Of a DNA stretch of 64,000 nucleotides, positions 8,209 to 16,042 are shown in pieces. This DNA comes from Halobacterium rubrum (lineage in GTDB: Archaea > Halobacteriota > Halobacteria > Halobacteriales > Halobacteriaceae): assembly GCF_021729015.1 (NCBI RefSeq), contig NZ_JAJQQZ010000003.1, positions 62,001 to 126,000 on the forward strand. The letters run 5' to 3'. The stretch's first letter is position 1; each line of letters starts with the position of its first letter. Both the position numbers and the translations under genes were made by a program. The notes under the pieces were generated by a model. That model was given only the letters and a program-made list of their open reading frames with translations, did not search any database and was not told where the DNA came from.

Positions 8209-8649
8209 ATGGTAGACCCCTCGGTCGCGCTCTTCGGACCTCTCGATACTCTGGTCGCGCCATACATCGAGTTCGTACTGCTGGCGCTCGTCCTCCTGAA
8301 CTTCGTCAGCCGCCGCGTCGCCCACGGACAGCACGTCGAACAGGCCGAAGACGGCCCGGAGGCCATCACCCGACACCCGTTCCACTCGTTCACCTCGTGG
8401 GGGCTCATCCTCGCGAGCTTCTACTTCCTCACGCTCCACCACCACGCCGGCATGGTGCTGTCGACGCTAGTCATCGGTACGTATCTCGCGGACTTCTTCG
8501 AGTTCGAGGCCCGGAAAGTCGAAGCCCGCGAGGGCCACGGCCTCGACCGGCCGAAGGGTGCGCTCGTCGCGGCCTCCTTCACGTTCCTCTACGTCGGCTA
8601 CCTCAGCGTGTTCTTCCTCATCGAACCGCTCTGGTCGGCGGTCATCTGA
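8209..8649 (+). CDS. Small membrane protein (DUF7313-like)
   Basis: 146 residues from ATG 8209, with an AT-rich TATA-like stretch (GACATAATACC) about 25 bp upstream. There are three or four predicted membrane helices: one from about residue 17, one near WGLILASFYFLTL, one near LSTLVIGTYLADFF, and a C-terminal LYVGYLSVFFLIEPLW. A histidine-rich turn (TLHHHAGM) and an acidic FEFEARKVEAREG loop are notable. From memory it matches a haloarchaeal family (DUF7313) that sits beside the bc complex genes. Function is unknown; genomic context suggests a respiratory role. Confidence 0.75.
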   Translation: MVDPSVALFGPLDTLVAPYIEFVLLALVLLNFVSRRVAHGQHVEQAEDGPEAITRHPFHSFTSWGLILASFYFLTLHHHAGMVLSTLVIGTYLADFFEFEARKVEAREGHGLDRPKGALVAASFTFLYVGYLSVFFLIEPLWSAVI

Positions 8650-9040
8650 GGCTCTCTCCCACTCTCCGTAGCTGCTTCGGGCGTCCCTGATTCTCCGGCT
8701 GTCTGCTCTCCCGAGACCTTCTCGCCCCGCCGCGTGCTGTCCACCGACCACTGGAGTGGTGGCACCAGGCCGGCCGACTGGCGCTCTCTGGAGACGCCGA
8801 CTGCGACCCACAACCCGGTAGTTCACTCACGGGACCGCCCGCACGGAGGCTCGGGCTGGGCAGACAAACACCGCTACTGGCAGTGGCGGCACCTGCGAGA
8901 GGACGGCGGGCGGTCGGTGACGGACGGACACCGGCCGGAGTCGTGGCTCCGCATCACTCCGGAGGCTCGCTCGCAGAGCCGCAGCTACGACAGGCAGTGA
9001 ACCGGCTGGAACGCAGAACTCTCGGGAGGAGACTCGCCGA
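8650..9040. other. Gene-free gap between two convergent genes
   Basis: About 390 bp between the DUF7313-like gene and the convergent DUF7314-like gene. An open frame of 88 codons (8734-9000) has no recognisable protein features and was not accepted. A 14-bp inverted repeat ACCACT-GG-AGTGGT lies at 8747-8760 and could form a small hairpin after the plus-strand gene. Nothing else is seen. Confidence 0.5.
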
Positions 9041-9301
9041 TTACTCGCCGTTGTACTTCGCGTACAGCTCGCGGCCCAGCGGGATGCCGACCCAGAACAG
9101 GATGGCGCCGAAGATGGCGAGCCAGAACATCCCCTCGAGGAGAATGACGGCGAGCTGGTCGTACATCGTCAGGTTGTCCGGCACCGCGCTGGTGAGCTGT
9201 CCGCCGGCGAAGCTCGGCGTCTTGTACCAGCCAGCCAGCACCATCCACACGAGGCCCGCACCGCTCAACAGGCCCAGGCCCTTCATGAACTCGTCAGCCA
9301 T
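9041..9301 (-). CDS. Small membrane protein (DUF7314-like)
   Basis: 86 residues with two hydrophobic segments (GLGLLSGAGLVWMVLAGW and LLEGMFWLAIFGAILFWVG) and a charged C-terminus (RELYAKYNGE). Its ATG overlaps the end of the upstream DUF7315-like gene by eight bases, so the two are translationally coupled. From memory it matches DUF7314, a family found only near haloarchaeal cytochrome bc genes. It could be a small stabilising subunit of that complex; this is inferred from context only. Confidence 0.75.
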   Translation of the reverse strand: MADEFMKGLGLLSGAGLVWMVLAGWYKTPSFAGGQLTSAVPDNLTMYDQLAVILLEGMFWLAIFGAILFWVGIPLGRELYAKYNGE

Positions 9302-9587
9302 TGTCCGCTGATTGGTCGTCGCTGTCCTTATCCGTTGCCATTCCGCGAGCCCGGAACCGGGACGCGAACGCGTACACCACGCCGCCCGCCGCGATGAGCG
9401 CGACGCCGAGCAGCGACATCGGCACGCTCACCTCCTCGGGCGCCGCCGACCCGGTGTCGGTCGCCACGTCCAGCGCCACGAACCCACCGACGACCGCGAC
9501 GACGGCGAACAGCGTCGAGAACACCGTCACGGTCTTGTAGAGGCGCTCGGGGACGACGACGTCGCGCTCGCGGGAGTCGTCTGCCAT
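9294..9587 (-). CDS. Small membrane protein (DUF7315-like)
   Basis: 97 residues with two membrane helices (about 20-40 and 58-75) joined by an external acidic loop. The N-terminus (MADDSRERDVVVPERLYKTV) and C-terminus are charged. It has its own promoter: AGTAAAGTAG at 9612-9621 is about 25 bp before the ATG. It therefore starts a second transcript after petD rather than depending on readthrough. It is the first gene of a coupled pair with the DUF7314-like gene. Function unknown; it belongs to the bc neighbourhood. Confidence 0.75.
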   Translation of the reverse strand: MADDSRERDVVVPERLYKTVTVFSTLFAVVAVVGGFVALDVATDTGSAAPEEVSVPMSLLGVALIAAGGVVYAFASRFRARGMATDKDSDDQSADNG

Positions 9588-9776
9588 CGACGACCACTCG
9601 GGCTGCTGGCTACTTTACTGCGGCGGAACCCCCGCCGTACACGCACTCCGCACGACGACACGGACAGGGCCGGCGCCACCACTGCTGGTCGAGTGCAACG
9701 AGCGCGCGACTCGCCACGAAGAACCGCGAGAACGAGAGCCGAATCGACGCCAGCAGCGCGAACGGACTGCGGCCGG

Positions 9777-10541
9777 TTACTTCGGCGGCCGCAGCTTGTA
9801 GTACCGCCGGTTCAGGTCGTACATGTAGCCCTCGCGCATCGTCTTCAGCAACGCGTACGCGATCGCGCCTGCGATCGGCGGCACGAGGAACGTCAGGTCG
9901 AACAGCAGGTGGGGGTCCAGCGGGATGAGGTTCTTCGCGGAGTACGTGCTGATGGTGAACGCGAACACCACGCCCATCACGCCGACGGACGCCCAGAACG
10001 GCTGCTCGACGGGGCGCCGGGCGCTCCCCTTGTTGAGGAACGGCACGATGGCGATGAACCCGACGATCACGACGTTCGCGAGCACGCCGTACGTCCGGTC
10101 GGCGAGCAGTTTCTCGCCGCCGAGGATGGCGAGCTCGGGGTTCAGCGGCCCGAGCTTCAGCAGGCCGAACGACCAGTACAGGTACCAGTCCGGCAGGATG
10201 ATACTCGGCGTCGTCGACGGGTTCGCCGGGTCGCCGAGGTGCGGCGGCAGCGTCGCCGCCAGGAACAGGATCATCCCGACGAAGAAGCTCGTGAGCGCGA
10301 GGTTGCGCACGAGCTCGTGGGGCCACGTCGGGAACGCCAGCACGTCGCGTTCCACGTAGTCGGACTCCTCGCGGAGGTCCTGGTCCTCGCGGCGGGACCG
10401 CTCGAAGTACTCGTACGTCAGCCGGGACAGTCCCGTGGTGCGCTCCTTGCGCTCGCTCCACGTCGGGGTCTCGTCGTCCGGCGGGACGATGCCCGTGCCG
10501 TCGGTGCGAGCCTCCTTCTCGGTGGTTTCGTCGTCAGTCAT
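9777..10541 (-). CDS. petD: Cytochrome b C-terminal subunit (petD/subunit IV type)
   Basis: 254 residues. After a charged, soluble N-terminus of about 75 residues it shows the quinol-oxidation (Qo) motif as PDWYLYWSFGLLKL, the PDWY variant rather than PEWY. At least three further membrane helices follow. The protein corresponds to the C-terminal half of cytochrome b, as in cytochrome b6f complexes where the chain is split. PDWY is typical of complexes that oxidise low-potential quinols such as menaquinol, which haloarchaea use. It lies 7 bp after petB in one operon. Confidence 0.9.
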   Translation of the reverse strand: MTDDETTEKEARTDGTGIVPPDDETPTWSERKERTTGLSRLTYEYFERSRREDQDLREESDYVERDVLAFPTWPHELVRNLALTSFFVGMILFLAATLPPHLGDPANPSTTPSIILPDWYLYWSFGLLKLGPLNPELAILGGEKLLADRTYGVLANVVIVGFIAIVPFLNKGSARRPVEQPFWASVGVMGVVFAFTISTYSAKNLIPLDPHLLFDLTFLVPPIAGAIAYALLKTMREGYMYDLNRRYYKLRPPK

Positions 10542-10548
10542 TGTGTTC

Positions 10549-11361
10549 TTAGTGGGGTTCCGCGATGCCCTGCATCCAGACCAGTCCGAGGTGGATGGCG
10601 ATGACCGTCGTCACCACGAACGGGAGCAGGAACACGTGCAGCAGGTACATTCGCTGGAGCGTCGCCTGACCGAGCGAGAAGCCGCCGAACAGCAACTGGG
10701 CGACCCACTCGCCGATGAACGGAATCGAGAGACTCATCTCGACGCCGATCTGGCCCGCCCAGTACGCCAGCTGGTCCCAGGGCAGGAGGTAGCCAGTGTA
10801 CCCGAAGACCATCGTCAGGCTCAGCAGGACGATGCCGACGAGCCAGTTGACCTCGCGGGGTTCCTTGTACGCGCCCGTGAAGTAGACGCGCAGCATGTGC
10901 AGGAAGACCGCGGCGGTCATCACCTGCGCCGCCCACCGGTGCAGCGACCGGAGGAAGAACCCGAAGTTCAGCTCGGTCATGATGGCTGCGACGGTGCTGT
11001 ACGCGACCGTCGCGCCCTCGATGTCGGCCGCGCCGGCTGCCGCCGACGGCGAGTAGTAGAATCCGAGCAGTGCGCCGGATATCGCCGCGACGACGTACGC
11101 CAGCGTGGAGAAGAACCCCAGCGAGTACAGCGGGTACCAGTACCAGAACTTGTTGTCGAGGTTGTACTGTTCGGTGTGGCTCTTCGGCATCTGGAGGTTG
11201 ACCCGGTAGTACAGCGTCTCCAGCAGTTCCAGGTAGTCGACGATGCGCAGCCGGCGGTCGAGCCAGACCAGCACCGTCAGGAACGTGCTCTCGACGGCCG
11301 TCAGGTCTTTCTCCTGGATCCAGGCTTCGTGGTCGTGTTCGTCCTTGCGTTCGATGCTCAT
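10549..11361 (-). CDS. petB: Cytochrome b N-terminal subunit (petB type, diheme)
   Basis: 270 residues. A charged N-terminal extension of about 75 residues precedes four membrane helices. The two heme b ligand pairs are visible: His141 and His155 (13 residues between) in the second helix, and His242 and His257 (14 between) in the fourth. The 14-residue spacing is the b6f type. TGYLLPWDQ carries the conserved PWD-like turn of the Qo site. It forms the core of the menaquinol:halocyanin oxidoreductase with the Rieske protein and PetD. The Rieske stop lies 4 bp upstream. Confidence 0.93.
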   Translation of the reverse strand: MSIERKDEHDHEAWIQEKDLTAVESTFLTVLVWLDRRLRIVDYLELLETLYYRVNLQMPKSHTEQYNLDNKFWYWYPLYSLGFFSTLAYVVAAISGALLGFYYSPSAAAGAADIEGATVAYSTVAAIMTELNFGFFLRSLHRWAAQVMTAAVFLHMLRVYFTGAYKEPREVNWLVGIVLLSLTMVFGYTGYLLPWDQLAYWAGQIGVEMSLSIPFIGEWVAQLLFGGFSLGQATLQRMYLLHVFLLPFVVTTVIAIHLGLVWMQGIAEPH

Positions 11362-11365
11362 TGTA

Positions 11366-12199
11366 TCAGTTCTCCGGCCGCGCGAACGCGACGAAGCTCC
11401 GTTTCACGATGCTGAACGGGTCGTACAGCGACTGGTGGCACTGGCAGTAGATCTTGTCCTCGCCACCGCCGTAGGACGCCGTCCGGAAGCCACTCGGCGC
11501 ACAGCAGAAGTGCGTGCACTTGTTCAGGATGGCCATGAAGCCGCTGTCCGTGGCGGCCTCCAGCCAGTCGACGACCTCGCCGTCCTCGGACTCGATGGTG
11601 TCCTCGAGGACGGTGCTCCGGATGATCTGGACGGGGATGGTGTTGTCCGTGCCGTCCGACCGCCAGGTCGCCTTCGCCGGCTTCCCGATGCCGGCCTCGC
11701 CGTAGTCGTTCTCCCAGGTGTCGTAGTCCTGGAAGTCGTCGACGTTCACCTTCCCGGAGCCGGGCTGCCAGTCGTACGTCGACGTGCCCGAGTACCGGAG
11801 GTAGTTGTCGCCGTCGTAGTCCGGCCGCAGGCCCTCGTAGCCCTGCACGCCGCAGTACTGGAACCAGTCGGTGCTGTACTCGATGCCGCCGAGTTCCATC
11901 CGTGGCTCCTCGACGATCTCCCCGGTGTCGGTCTCGACCTCCTGGAGGTCGGGGTAGACGCCGCGGAGGTTGCCCTCGTCGTCGATCTCGATGGGGAGCA
12001 TCGGCATCCCGCGCGGCGCGGGGCCCGCGGTGTTCTCGACGGCGTAGTAGTCCGTCGGCCCACCGCCCGCTCCCGTGGGGCTGGTCGTGGTCTCGATGGC
12101 AGCGACGCCCGCCGTCCCGGCGCCCGCTAGCGTCGCGCTTCCCACGACGCCCTTGACGAATCGGCGGCGACCGGAGCTCTCTGGGTACTTGTCAGACAT
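11366..12199 (-). CDS. petA: Rieske 2Fe-2S protein of cytochrome bc complex
   Basis: 277 residues with a Tat signal-anchor (GRRRFVKGVVGSATLAGAGT). The Rieske cluster boxes are near the C-terminus: CTHFCC and, about 20 residues later, CQCHQS. These supply two Cys and two His cluster ligands plus the disulfide pair. The long middle region (about 60-220) is larger than in mitochondrial or bacterial Rieske proteins and is typical of haloarchaeal ones. It transfers electrons from menaquinol at the Qo site to a halocyanin. It lies 2 bp after the DUF7318-like gene in the same operon. Confidence 0.92.
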   Translation of the reverse strand: MSDKYPESSGRRRFVKGVVGSATLAGAGTAGVAAIETTTSPTGAGGGPTDYYAVENTAGPAPRGMPMLPIEIDDEGNLRGVYPDLQEVETDTGEIVEEPRMELGGIEYSTDWFQYCGVQGYEGLRPDYDGDNYLRYSGTSTYDWQPGSGKVNVDDFQDYDTWENDYGEAGIGKPAKATWRSDGTDNTIPVQIIRSTVLEDTIESEDGEVVDWLEAATDSGFMAILNKCTHFCCAPSGFRTASYGGGEDKIYCQCHQSLYDPFSIVKRSFVAFARPEN

Positions 12200-12201
12200 T
12201 G

Positions 12202-12588
12202 TTATTTCTCCTTGTAGGGGTAGACTGCCTTCTTGAACTGCTCGACGGTGTCGCCGAACAGCGACGTGCCGTCAGCCTGTTCCTCCCGGATGTAGAGGTC
12301 CTCCCACTTGCGGCGGCGCTTCTTCACAATCATCACGTCCGGCAGGAACTCTTTCCGGTAGAGCATGAGGACGAACGAGAGGTCGATGAAGATGGCCGCG
12401 AGCAGGAAGCCGAGGTACATGTTGCCGACCGGGTCGGTACCGAGGCCGGTGACGAGTCCCCACGTGAACAGGGCAACGAGCACCACCTCGATGATGGTGA
12501 GCAGGACGATGGCGATCATCGCCGCCGTGCTCTCGCGGGCAGGTTCGTACCGGTGAATGTCGCCGTAGTTGGAGCCTTTCGAGGACAT
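12202..12588 (-). CDS. Small membrane protein of the bc operon (DUF7318-like)
   Basis: 128 residues with two membrane helices (about 23-45 and 54-76) and a basic, soluble C-terminal half (VKKRRRKWEDLYIREEQ). Its ATG shares one base with the stop of the upstream halocyanin gene (TAATG). The Rieske gene begins 2 bp after its stop. It is therefore co-translated with known bc subunits, which argues that it is itself a subunit or assembly factor. From memory it matches DUF7318; no function has been assigned. Confidence 0.8.
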   Translation of the reverse strand: MSSKGSNYGDIHRYEPARESTAAMIAIVLLTIIEVVLVALFTWGLVTGLGTDPVGNMYLGFLLAAIFIDLSFVLMLYRKEFLPDVMIVKKRRRKWEDLYIREEQADGTSLFGDTVEQFKKAVYPYKEK

Positions 12589-13271
12589 TATTCCTTGCTA
12601 GGTGCGCTGGCGTGCTGGGACTCGCCGTACTTCAGCACGAAGAACGTGTACACCAGACTCACGATCATCATGAGAATGGTGGCGATGCCGACGAAGTGCG
12701 CCTGGAACGGCACACCCATCTCGTGGGGCGTCCGTTCGGCTGCGCCGCCTTCGCCCTCCGGTGGTGCGCCGGACTCGTTGACCACGACTGTCCCCTCCAT
12801 GCCGACGGAGGCGTGAGGGTCACAGACGTAGTTGTACTCGCCCGTCGGGCCCTCGAAGGTGTGGGAGTACTCGAACGGCGCCGAGACGACCTCCGTCTGG
12901 GCGCTCCAGGCCGCTTCCTCGGGGACGTCCGTCGCGTGGACGTTGTGGGCGACCGAACCCTGCCACTCCCACTTGACGGTGTCACCGGGAGCGACGTAGA
13001 CGGTCTCGGGGTCGAAGACGTTCTGGTTGTTCGGTCCGACTGCGACGGTCTTCGTCGTGCCGCCGCCACTGTCCCCCTCGCTGCCGGACGTGGTCGTACC
13101 GTTGCCCGCTGTGCCATTGCCCGTCGTCGTGCCGTTCTCCGTGGAGTTGTTACCCTCCTCCTGCTGCAGGACGGCTGACGAGGACGAGGACGACCGCGCA
13201 CCGGCTGCTCCGACGGCCGCCGCGCCGCCGGCCGAACCGGTCGCAATTTTCAGAAAGTCCCGCCTCTTCAT
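12588..13271 (-). CDS. Halocyanin-type blue copper protein of the bc operon
   Basis: 227 residues. A Tat signal (MKRRDFLKIATGSAGGAAAV) is followed by a Ser/Asn/Gly/Thr-rich linker likely to be glycosylated. The cupredoxin domain carries copper ligands in HNVHATDV and YVCDPHASVGM. A C-terminal membrane helix (ILMMIVSLVYTFFVLKYG) anchors it. It is the first gene of the operon halocyanin-DUF7318-Rieske-petB-petD, with a TATA element GTTTATGC at 13297-13304. It is the natural electron acceptor of the Rieske protein, used instead of cytochrome c. Confidence 0.9.
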   Translation of the reverse strand: MKRRDFLKIATGSAGGAAAVGAAGARSSSSSSAVLQQEEGNNSTENGTTTGNGTAGNGTTTSGSEGDSGGGTTKTVAVGPNNQNVFDPETVYVAPGDTVKWEWQGSVAHNVHATDVPEEAAWSAQTEVVSAPFEYSHTFEGPTGEYNYVCDPHASVGMEGTVVVNESGAPPEGEGGAAERTPHEMGVPFQAHFVGIATILMMIVSLVYTFFVLKYGESQHASAPSKE

Positions 13272-13296
13272 ACACTCCAGAATCAGGATGGGAACT

Positions 13297-13304
13297 GCAT
13301 AAAC
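13297..13304 (-). promoter_or_regulatory. TATA element of the halocyanin-bc operon
   Basis: On the minus strand GTTTATGC, 26-33 bp before the halocyanin ATG at 13271. Its position predicts a leaderless or nearly leaderless transcript for the whole bc operon. Confidence 0.6.
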
Positions 13305-13346
13305 CCACCGATGGCTCGGTGCCGCTACGACGCCCGTATCGGCGTC

Positions 13347-14285
13347 TTACGGGGCGTCTTCGTCCGGTTCGGCGTCCCGGTCGTAGCCGTCGGTCTCTGG
13401 CACGAACGGTGGCCGTTCCCCGCCGCCGACGCCCGCCGACCGAAGCCGGTTCCGGAACTCTTCTGCCCGGAAGCGGTCCGACAGCCGAGCGTTCGCCACG
13501 AGCATCAGCATGAACACGCCGAACACGACGAACCCGACGCCGGCGATGGCGGCGATGACCGCCGAGTCGCCCAGCGGGTGGAGGTTCATCGTCACACCTG
13601 CAATCTCACACGCGCGAGCGGACGACCCCTGCACTGGAGGGCAGCCCCGGACGAGCGGGTCGTAGATGAACGGCGACAGGAACAGCAGGACGCCGGCGGC
13701 CAGCTGTACGATGCCGACGTACTGGAGCAGCGACGTGCCCAGCCCGCCGCTGCCCTCGGGAATCTCTGCCGGGTCGGGGAGGCCCGCGCCCTCGGGTGGG
13801 TCGGGCGTGTCGTAGGTGTCCATCGAGCAGAGCGCGACCGTCGGTTTGACGTCCCGCAGCACCGTCCCCGACCCCTGCACGGTGCCGTCCGGGTAGACGA
13901 CGGCGTACCCCTCGTCGGAGTACGCGAGCACGACCGGTTCGCCGTCGATGCTGTCGCGTTCGACGACGGCGAACACGTCACGCGTGGCGACCCGGTGGCG
14001 GAGGTCGTCAGCCACGCGGTCGAGCAGGTCGGCGCCCGTAATCCAGGTGTCGGGGTCGAACGCCGCCTCCCACTCGTCGGCGCTCATCTCCGCCATCTGC
14101 TGTGGCCCGAACTCCTCGAAGTCGTACTCCTCGTCGACCTCGGCGGCGATGTCGCTGGCGGTCACCGACTCGACAGTCCGGTCGGCGCCGTCGCCGTCCT
14201 CGTCGCCGCCGCTGCTACCGTCGCTCACCCGCGCTGCGTGGTCCGCCGGCTCCGTCTCGTCCCCGCCGGCGCTGGAGTCCGTCAT
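13347..14285 (-). CDS. Membrane protein near bc complex (DUF7319-like)
   Basis: 312 residues. The first 40 are acidic and disordered. A soluble region (about 45-165) contains WITGADLLDRVADDLRHRV and VYPDGTVQGSGTVLRDVKP. Two membrane helices follow, around residues 185-205 and 240-262, joined by a loop with two cysteines (RGCPPVQ and ARACEIAG). The C-terminus is cytoplasmic and charged. It lies directly upstream of the halocyanin gene on the same strand and, from memory, matches DUF7319. Function unknown; context links it to the bc complex. Confidence 0.75.
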   Translation of the reverse strand: MTDSSAGGDETEPADHAARVSDGSSGGDEDGDGADRTVESVTASDIAAEVDEEYDFEEFGPQQMAEMSADEWEAAFDPDTWITGADLLDRVADDLRHRVATRDVFAVVERDSIDGEPVVLAYSDEGYAVVYPDGTVQGSGTVLRDVKPTVALCSMDTYDTPDPPEGAGLPDPAEIPEGSGGLGTSLLQYVGIVQLAAGVLLFLSPFIYDPLVRGCPPVQGSSARACEIAGVTMNLHPLGDSAVIAAIAGVGFVVFGVFMLMLVANARLSDRFRAEEFRNRLRSAGVGGGERPPFVPETDGYDRDAEPDEDAP

Positions 14286-14328
14286 CGACTGGAGGTTGCG
14301 GGTCGAACGGGTAAACGCTTCCGACCGA

Positions 14329-14778
14329 CTACACCGCCGTCAGGCTGACACTCGTGTCGTTCTCGGCCACCGTCAGCCGGTAGTACTCGTACCCCCGGAC
14401 CGCTCTGTCGAAGACGACCGCCCCGTCGCGCTCGACGACGACGCGGACATCGTGGCCGCGGTCGTGAACGGGCTGCGTCAGCCAGTGCTTGTCGCCGCCG
14501 AAGAGTTCGAACTGGGACCTGTTGCCGTCCGGCGCCACCGTGGCCGTGACACCGTCGACGTCGCTCGCCACTCGCACGGAGAAGTGGTCTCCTGCATGTG
14601 TTGTCCCACGCGCGGTGTGTAGCTCGGTCGTGTCCGTCGCCGTCGTGGCTGGTGCCGTCGTCGCTCCGGTCGTCGGCGTACTGGCTGTCGGTCCGCCTCC
14701 GCTGTTTGGTGTGCCGACGCCCGCACAGCCGGCCAGCACCACGAGGAGCGCGAGGACCACTGCAGGTCGGGGTGACAT
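14329..14778 (-). CDS. Secreted lipoprotein of unknown function
   Basis: 149 residues with a classic lipobox at the end of a short hydrophobic signal (LALLVVLAGCAG). A Thr/Ala/Ser-rich stretch of about 35 residues follows, likely glycosylated. The remaining small beta-rich domain (about 55-149) has no motif I recognise. It lies between the DUF7319-like and DUF7321-like genes of the respiratory neighbourhood. The signal lacks a twin Arg, so it probably uses the Sec pathway. No function is proposed. Confidence 0.72.
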   Translation of the reverse strand: MSPRPAVVLALLVVLAGCAGVGTPNSGGGPTASTPTTGATTAPATTATDTTELHTARGTTHAGDHFSVRVASDVDGVTATVAPDGNRSQFELFGGDKHWLTQPVHDRGHDVRVVVERDGAVVFDRAVRGYEYYRLTVAENDTSVSLTAV

Positions 14779-14861
14779 GTTCGGACCTTCCGGGAATGCT
14801 GGAATGCGTCTCGTGGGCCGCGAGTCGAACGCGTTTTGTCGCGTCGGTCGAACGACGATAC

Positions 14862-15350
14862 ATGGTCGAGGACGTGGTGGTCGCCAGTGTCGCCGGGCTG
14901 CTGGTCACCCTGAGTTTCCCGTTCTACATCTACGGCGCCTGGATTGTCATCGACGAGGAGACCGTCACGTGGGGCGTGCTCCGCCACCACCTCGCGTACA
15001 TCTTCGTCGGGCTCACGCTCAACACGGTGCCCGTCGCGGTCTGGATGATACCCCGGCTGTTCGAACAGCTCGGCGGGTTCGCCGCGCTGCACGCGTTCTT
15101 CGGCGTGCAGGCGTACGCCTTCCTCGCGTTCGCGCTCACCGGCATCGTCCCGATTCTGCGCGCGAAACGCGAGTACAACCTCTACAACGACCCCGACCCC
15201 ACGCTGGACATCGACGACATCCACGAAGACATGGGGGCGTGGCGGATGCGGCTCCGCGCCGGGGTCGCGGGCTACGTGCTCTGCTGGCTGATCGCGTGGG
15301 TCCTGGGCGTCATCCGGTGGGCGATGCGGTACCCGGAGATACCGGTCTAG
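14862..15350 (+). CDS. Four-helix membrane protein (DUF7321-like)
   Basis: 162 residues with four predicted membrane helices: about 5-28, 40-62, 75-98 and 135-155. Histidines lie at the membrane edge of helix two (LRHHLAYIF) and helix three (ALHAFFGVQAYAFLAF). A soluble acidic loop (YNDPDPTLDIDDIHEDM) joins helices three and four. From memory it matches DUF7321. The layout recalls small heme-b membrane proteins, but heme binding is only a guess. It is divergent from the lipoprotein gene, and its stop overlaps the convergent HTH gene by four bases. Confidence 0.75.
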   Translation: MVEDVVVASVAGLLVTLSFPFYIYGAWIVIDEETVTWGVLRHHLAYIFVGLTLNTVPVAVWMIPRLFEQLGGFAALHAFFGVQAYAFLAFALTGIVPILRAKREYNLYNDPDPTLDIDDIHEDMGAWRMRLRAGVAGYVLCWLIAWVLGVIRWAMRYPEIPV

Positions 15351-16042
15351 CGCTGCCGGTACCAGGCGTACCCGAGGACGACCGCGAGTACCAGCAGGCC
15401 GCCAGCGAAGAACAGTACCCCGGGCGGAATCCCGCCCGCGGCGGCGTCCGCTACCTCCGCCGTGTAGTTGACCGCCCCCGAGTCGCCCGCTTCTCTCGCT
15501 GTCTCCGTCGTCGTCTCGACCGCGTCGTTCGACGCGATGCCGACGGCGTCGTCTCCCCCACCGCCGCCGTCGGTCGCCTCGGTGGCCGTCCCGTCGCCGG
15601 GCTGCCCGCCCAGCAGCCGCTGGACGACCAGACTCGCCGCGCCGAGCACGCCGACGACGCCGAGCAGCCTCGCCAGCCGGCTCTTCAGGGACGGCGAGGA
15701 GGCCTCGTCGGACGCGAACAGGACCAGCGAGTCGCTGGCGGGCGCGTACACCTTCATCTCGCGGCCCTGCTCGGAGTACCACGTGTCGGCGACCTCGACC
15801 AGGTCGGCGTCGACGAGCTTCTCGATGTGGTAGCTGGCGTTCTGCAGGGACGTGTCGACCCGGTCGGCGACGCTGGACGCCGTGTCGGGGTCCTCGTAGA
15901 GCGCCGCCAGTATCTCGCGGGCCGTCCGCGAGGACAGGGCCTCGAACACCTCGTCGGCGGCGTCCTCCCGGATGCTCACGACCTCCGAGCCGTCGCCGGT
16001 CTCGACGGACGAGCCGCCCGGGAGAAGACGGTTCGCTGTCAT
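15347..16042 (-). CDS. Winged-helix protein with membrane C-terminus
   Basis: 231 residues. Residues about 28-105 form an ArsR-like winged helix (SSRTAREILAALYEDPDTAS, then LQNASYHIEKLVDADLVEV). A hydrophobic helix follows near 125-143, then a Gly/Thr/Glu-rich loop, then a C-terminal membrane helix (GVLFFAGGLLVLAVVLGYAW). The N-terminal HTH should be cytoplasmic. This is a common haloarchaeal architecture for membrane-bound regulators, with unknown signals. It lies next to endonuclease III in the same direction but about 110 bp downstream of it. Confidence 0.82.
   Translation of the reverse strand: MTANRLLPGGSSVETGDGSEVVSIREDAADEVFEALSSRTAREILAALYEDPDTASSVADRVDTSLQNASYHIEKLVDADLVEVADTWYSEQGREMKVYAPASDSLVLFASDEASSPSLKSRLARLLGVVGVLGAASLVVQRLLGGQPGDGTATEATDGGGGGDDAVGIASNDAVETTTETAREAGDSGAVNYTAEVADAAAGGIPPGVLFFAGGLLVLAVVLGYAWYRQR

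Follow-up and report, generated by a model that had tools for sequence, protein, structure and literature searches.

The window, a stretch of 64,000 nucleotides from Halobacterium rubrum, in our judgement quite probably carries the complete gene cassette for haloarchaeal complex III, the menaquinol:halocyanin oxidoreductase, in which DUF7318 would be a structural subunit and the other five DUF proteins of the locus (DUF7313, DUF7314, DUF7315, DUF7319 and DUF7321) accessory subunits or dedicated assembly factors. Judged from sequence comparisons, haloarchaea probably build complex III with parts so far uncounted. The preliminary description of this DNA had proposed several accessory subunits or assembly factors. 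We retain this proposal for DUF7318, a likely subunit by its homology to QcrA, and for the other five DUFs, which are tied to the complex, and withdraw it for a lipoprotein.

The core of the cassette is a minus-strand operon that reads halocyanin (12588–13271), DUF7318 (12202–12588), Rieske (petA; 11366–12199), petB (10549–11361) and petD (9777–10541), and it is as tight as first described. The halocyanin and DUF7318 genes overlap by one base (TA-ATG), and the gaps that follow measure 2 bp (DUF7318–Rieske), 4 bp (Rieske–petB) and 7 bp (petB–petD). The halocyanin has a TAT-type signal, a cupredoxin domain (PF00127, 1.4e-15) and a conserved C-terminal membrane anchor. DUF7318 (PF24002, 1.6e-69) is a hairpin of 128 aa with two TM segments. 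The haloarchaeal-type Rieske protein of the window gave no Pfam match but has an unusual motif, CTHFCC...CQCHQSxYDPF. Cytochrome b is split into a cytochrome b6-like N-terminal half, PetB (PF00033, 3.4e-45; PF13631 also matched), and a C-terminal half with the PDWY Qo motif, PetD (PF00032, 3.5e-9). With separate petB, petD and Rieske genes, the locus has the make-up of a split cytochrome b (b6f-like) quinol oxidoreductase.

The flanking genes also lie where the preliminary description had placed them. Upstream of halocyanin, on the minus strand, DUF7319 (13347–14285; PF24003, 2.5e-92) has a soluble N-terminal domain and two long C-terminal helices. Downstream of petD, on the same strand, are two small membrane proteins, DUF7315 (9294–9587, 97 aa; PF23997, 3e-29) and DUF7314 (9041–9301, 86 aa; PF23996, 5e-36), whose ORFs overlap by 8 bases. 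The two ends of the cassette are occupied by outward-facing plus-strand genes for multi-pass membrane proteins, DUF7313 (8209–8649, 146 aa; PF23995, 3e-59) and the helical DUF7321 (14862–15350; PF24007, 3.6e-74). We observed the same gene order, with local variations that concern mainly the outer genes, in 45 further haloarchaeal genomes examined, and therefore the arrangement is not a matter of chance. The consensus is M28, NADK, DUF7313, DUF7314, DUF7315, petD, petB, (Rieske), DUF7318, halocyanin, DUF7319, DUF7321, nth, with DUF7314 adjoining DUF7315 wherever both were located.

Next, the same 155 complete haloarchaeal genomes were searched for every family. DUF7318, DUF7313, DUF7314 and DUF7315 were each found in 110 of them, and so was the special PetA Rieske (alignment A6); DUF7319 and DUF7321 were each found in 109, and the neighbouring gene nth in all 155. 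A split petB was found in the DUF7318-positive genomes, beside DUF7318. Among the genomes listed, the positives were the same in each table, with G021 as the sole exception. This genome keeps the split petB, Rieske, DUF7318, DUF7313, DUF7314 and DUF7315 and is without DUF7319 and DUF7321, so these two must be dispensable at least there. We take the carrier sets to be identical from the listed rows, which comprise all but about 25 negative genomes per table, and from the equal totals. The sole cytochrome b of four cassette-negative genomes (G001, G002, G010 and G038) is a longer, fused one of the kind found in nar operons. As carriers and non-carriers are both present within the families f1, f2, f3 and f10, at least four changes of state have occurred, if these families are monophyletic. 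About one third of haloarchaea have been reported to lack complex III (PMC8305020), in line with the 45 of 155 observed here. Among the genomes listed, the six DUFs occur only in species with complex III, which supports an obligate association. The preliminary description had put forward seven proteins whose presence might follow petB/petD across archaea, and six of them do so. The seventh, the lipoprotein (14329–14778), has no confident family assignment and turned up in no genus but that of the window; hence it fails as a complex-associated protein and should leave the candidate set. An HTH gene behind DUF7321 (15347–16042) was likewise found only in this genus and was rejected as a cassette part.

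Among the DUF proteins, DUF7318 is as conserved as PetD and behaves like a core subunit. Mean pairwise identities at the same loci were 79% for petB, 73% for petD, 73% for DUF7318, 71% for nth and 60% for DUF7321, followed by Rieske (55%), DUF7319 (52%), DUF7314 (51%), DUF7315 (49%), halocyanin (46%) and DUF7313 (45%). The Rieske gene is unlinked from the operon in the 58 carriers of family f4 and in G021, and so the link to petBD is kept more strictly by DUF7318 than by Rieske. A complete loss of Rieske from f4 was considered and rejected, the gene being present at another place.

DUF7318 is also remotely homologous to a part of complex III whose structure is known, and this makes DUF7318 likely to be a new subunit, the best supported in the cassette. 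NF050121, the model for actinobacterial QcrA, was matched by all 18 aligned DUF7318 members (best E 1.8e-6), the window's protein aligning with positions 24–98, the N-terminal part of the model. The second most frequent Pfam family for the members was PF19297 (QcrA_N; 11 of 18, best E 0.0021). All these matches lie far below the curated cut-offs (for the window's protein 19.7 bits against 275 with NF050121) and are remote and confined to a short two-helix region; we therefore file DUF7318 as a homolog of the hairpin and not as QcrA. In profile–profile comparisons, DUF7318 aligned with the protein encoded first in haloarchaeal nar operons, presumably the one named Orf1, at E 8e-8, with a Thermus membrane protein at 1e-5 to 6e-5, and with the QcrA hairpin at 4e-4. 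The last value became 7e-6 when the sequence from G360, a genome outside the class, was added and 2e-6 when DUF7318 was merged with the nar proteins. The QcrA query was a sequence identical to a stretch of PDB chain 7e1v_M, and hhalign gave 85–89% for the pair. Controls, consisting of the other membrane families of the locus and of reversed profiles, gave E ≥ 0.0024, except for profiles compared with their own reversal. The alignment spans the hairpin and the polar segment that follows helix 2, EFLPDVMIVKKR in DUF7318 and RFIPEEISIQER in QcrA, in which both have F[IL]P-x-[ED]. It thus seems that the hairpin which in QcrA is fused to Rieske has a gene of its own in DUF7318.

From these data we propose the following working model. 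The catalytic core would consist of the split cytochrome b (PetB and PetD), the Rieske protein, which has an extra cysteine, and the halocyanin anchored in the membrane. DUF7318 is predicted to cross the membrane twice as a hairpin with both ends probably in the cytosol, where the positive-inside rule would place its basic tail, RKEFLPDVMIVKKRRRKWEDLY. The hairpin may pack against PetB/PetD beside the anchor helix of Rieske, as the corresponding part of QcrA does in the mature actinobacterial complex, while the tail would run along the cytosolic face. In this position DUF7318 could stabilise the dimer and the attachment of Rieske and halocyanin during quinol oxidation by the Q cycle. In the supercomplex of C. 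glutamicum, QcrA is a non-mobile subunit with wide contacts (PMC8795186). For DUF7313, DUF7314, DUF7315, DUF7319 and DUF7321, the distribution data support a place as cassette-restricted accessory subunits or assembly factors. Gene order, co-occurrence, conservation and remote homology were observed directly, and we infer from them the physical association, topology and roles given here.

Convergence of generic two-helix membrane segments could explain why DUF7318 resembles QcrA, the Thermus protein and nar Orf1, DUF7318 then being a haloarchaeal invention. The alignments are indeed short and hydrophobic, single pairwise E-values are as weak as 0.01, and no PDB sequence was matched by the profile of DUF7318 or of nar Orf1. 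However, the controls stayed at E ≥ 0.0024 apart from the self-reversals, QcrA ranks first or second in two independent curated libraries, the aligned region takes in the polar F[IL]P.. stretch after helix 2, and in each lineage examined the genes adjoin Rieske genes; we therefore consider convergence improbable. Still less credence is due to the view that the genes are simply inherited and lost as one block, with the outer DUFs functionally unrelated to the enzyme. The block is bounded by the conserved M28 peptidase, NADK and nth, and bc-less genomes lack it as a whole. In six of ten such genomes examined (from f1, f3 and f10), 96–471 bp separate NADK from nth, and the two face each other at the place that the cassette takes in bc-positive genomes; because they close up in this way, DUF7313 and DUF7321 mark the edges of the cassette. 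Co-absence is thus not independent gene by gene, since loss of the block would remove bystanders too. For the same reason, relocation is the better evidence on single genes. A comparison of coordinates showed that about 16 bc-positive genomes have DUF7313 at a place far away from the operon; DUF7314/DUF7315 are relocated in two (G074 and G123), yet all were retained. Among the genomes listed from the 155, we saw neither a bc-positive genome without DUF7313, DUF7314 and DUF7315 nor a bc-negative genome with them. Genes that have left the block therefore still co-occur with the bc genes, and nth is kept in every genome whereas the DUFs are not; both observations make mere synteny very improbable.

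A more serious competitor is that the DUF proteins, and with them DUF7318, serve as dedicated factors for assembly of, or cofactor insertion into, cytochrome b, Rieske or halocyanin and are absent from the mature enzyme. Such factors, too, co-occur with the proteins they serve and share operons with them; DUF7313 and DUF7321 have a divergent orientation, and G021 lacks both DUF7319 and DUF7321. In addition, we recognised no redox motif in DUF7319 or DUF7321. Their AF2 models (pLDDT 83.5 for DUF7319 and 91 for DUF7321) gave no significant match in a fold search of the PDB. A heme-binding role for DUF7321 through its invariant His43 and His77 was considered and dropped; the two residues are probably on opposite sides of the membrane, as in the model each stands at the beginning of one of two consecutive helices. 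Against a purely assembly-related role, DUF7318 is as conserved as PetD and is homologous to an integral segment of a subunit of the mature bacterial complex, and we regard this explanation as unlikely, albeit the strongest of the rivals. Somewhat less likely again is the most far-reaching version of our own model, a ten-subunit complex III. In this version all six DUFs would be stoichiometric subunits, a fixed halocyanin would replace cytochrome c, and Rieske would be immobilised as in the actinobacterial supercomplexes, the hairpin being encoded by a separate gene. Our preferred reading remains the one given at the outset, with DUF7318 as a structural subunit and the other five DUFs as accessory subunits or assembly factors.

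In the main texts of the literature searched, we found no paper that names DUF7313, DUF7314, DUF7315, DUF7318, DUF7319 or DUF7321 and none that ties the six to complex III; the search also returned no proteomic or structural data on haloarchaeal complex III. Earlier purifications have yielded bc-type preparations that conflict with one another, and the assignment of genes does not go beyond PetABD (PMC8305020, PMC4429474). In Haloferax volcanii, PetABD is HVO_2620/0842/0841, with petB as HVO_0842 and petD as HVO_0841 (PMC8305020). This assignment shares its core genes with the cassette of the window, but it comprises three proteins, and the six DUF families are not mentioned in its main text. 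RNA-seq of H. volcanii has defined a transcript of eight ORFs starting from HVO_0845, which encodes mainly conserved hypothetical proteins and was ascribed to a common unknown process (PMC6490895). As judged from gene order, this transcript fits DUF7319-hcy-DUF7318-petB-petD-DUF7315-DUF7314-DUF7313, also eight genes, and very probably contains most of the six DUFs. The word "uncharacterised" in the preliminary description is thus too strong in that each of the six carries a Pfam DUF name and most very probably lie in a published transcript; it is apt in that no paper was found linking them to complex III. The present analysis defines a complex III cassette and puts forward a structural hypothesis specific to DUF7318. 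The cassette also suggests which process stands behind the "conserved hypothetical proteins" transcript of H. volcanii (PMC6490895).

Finally, we compared the cassette with related systems in other lineages. The N-terminal region of actinobacterial QcrA (PF19297; NF050121; structures 6HWH, 7E1V and 7Q21) has two hydrophobic helices and a polar segment like DUF7318, and its gene is likewise encoded with cytochrome b. In QcrA, however, one polypeptide holds the hairpin, the Rieske anchor and the Rieske domain, whereas DUF7318 is a separate protein of 128 aa, from whose gene Rieske is even unlinked in f4 and G021. The haloarchaeal nar operons carry the Orf1 gene directly upstream of NarB (Rieske), followed by NarC, a fused cytochrome b. 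The two C-terminal helices of Orf1 are homologous to DUF7318 (E 8e-8), but Orf1 is longer (about 195 aa) by extra N-terminal helices and works with a cytochrome b of the fused type that is linked to nitrate reductase.

In Thermus (L053) the order is cytochrome c, a membrane protein with four TM segments, Rieske and cytochrome b. This membrane protein of 160 aa, which we take to be FbcD of the fbcCDFB operon and, on the same assumption, a subunit, occupies the slot between the gene of an electron carrier and Rieske, as DUF7318 does between halocyanin and Rieske. Its last two helices match DUF7318; it has four helices against the two hydrophobic segments of DUF7318, and its extra N-terminal pair resembles nar Orf1. 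Among 295 genomes of the phylum that were searched, one outside the class, G360, matched DUF7318; its gene order is cytochrome c, DUF7318, Rieske (CPHACC...CICHDS), petB, petD–ferredoxin fusion. Halocyanin thus fills an operon slot that in G360 holds a cytochrome c. The anchor of the G360 cytochrome c was considered as the origin of the C-terminal anchor of halocyanin; it was the best-scoring ORF outside haloarchaeal bc loci among 15,389, at an E of about 10, which is not significant. A 93-aa protein after petD in G360 was not supported as a relative of DUF7314/DUF7315 by profile–profile comparison. Taken together, QcrA, the Thermus membrane protein, nar Orf1 and DUF7318 form one candidate family of Rieske-associated hairpins that would extend over bacteria and archaea.

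From the alignment of haloarchaeal PetA, the Rieske protein of the bc complex (A6; window gene at 11366-12199, minus strand), we observed that the first cluster-binding box reads CTHFCC, as against the usual CTHxGC, in 13/13 sequences. The extra cysteine, invariant in this set, adjoins the disulfide cysteine, and the second box conforms to CxCH[QN]S in all 13 proteins. The CC pair is also present (CPHACC) in the Rieske protein of G360, an archaeal genome outside the haloarchaeal class. The petD gene of the same genome (locus L220, 8096-9067) carries a C-terminal 4Fe-4S dicluster ferredoxin domain, and this fusion suggests that electrons may enter or leave a bc complex on the cytosolic side.

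The PetA gene has moved out of the bc operon in all 58 genomes of one haloarchaeal family (f4) that carry the cassette, and lies in unrelated neighbourhoods (for example, loci L222, L224 and L225); one such neighbour is a large PEP carboxylase-like gene. In several genomes, among them G146, G122, G105 and G016, the PetA-type Rieske gene also occurs in one or two additional copies that are unlinked.

At the cassette edge, the window's genus alone was found to have genes for a lipoprotein (14329-14778) and an HTH regulator (15347-16042) inserted on either side of that for the multi-pass membrane protein DUF7321 (14862-15350, plus strand).

In haloarchaea, the nar operon begins with a gene whose product, absent from the nitrate-reduction literature examined, is encoded next to NarB and NarC (loci L033-L038 and L040) and is a membrane protein of the same type as DUF7318, the two-helix protein encoded between halocyanin and Rieske, and the related four-helix protein beside the Thermus Rieske protein.
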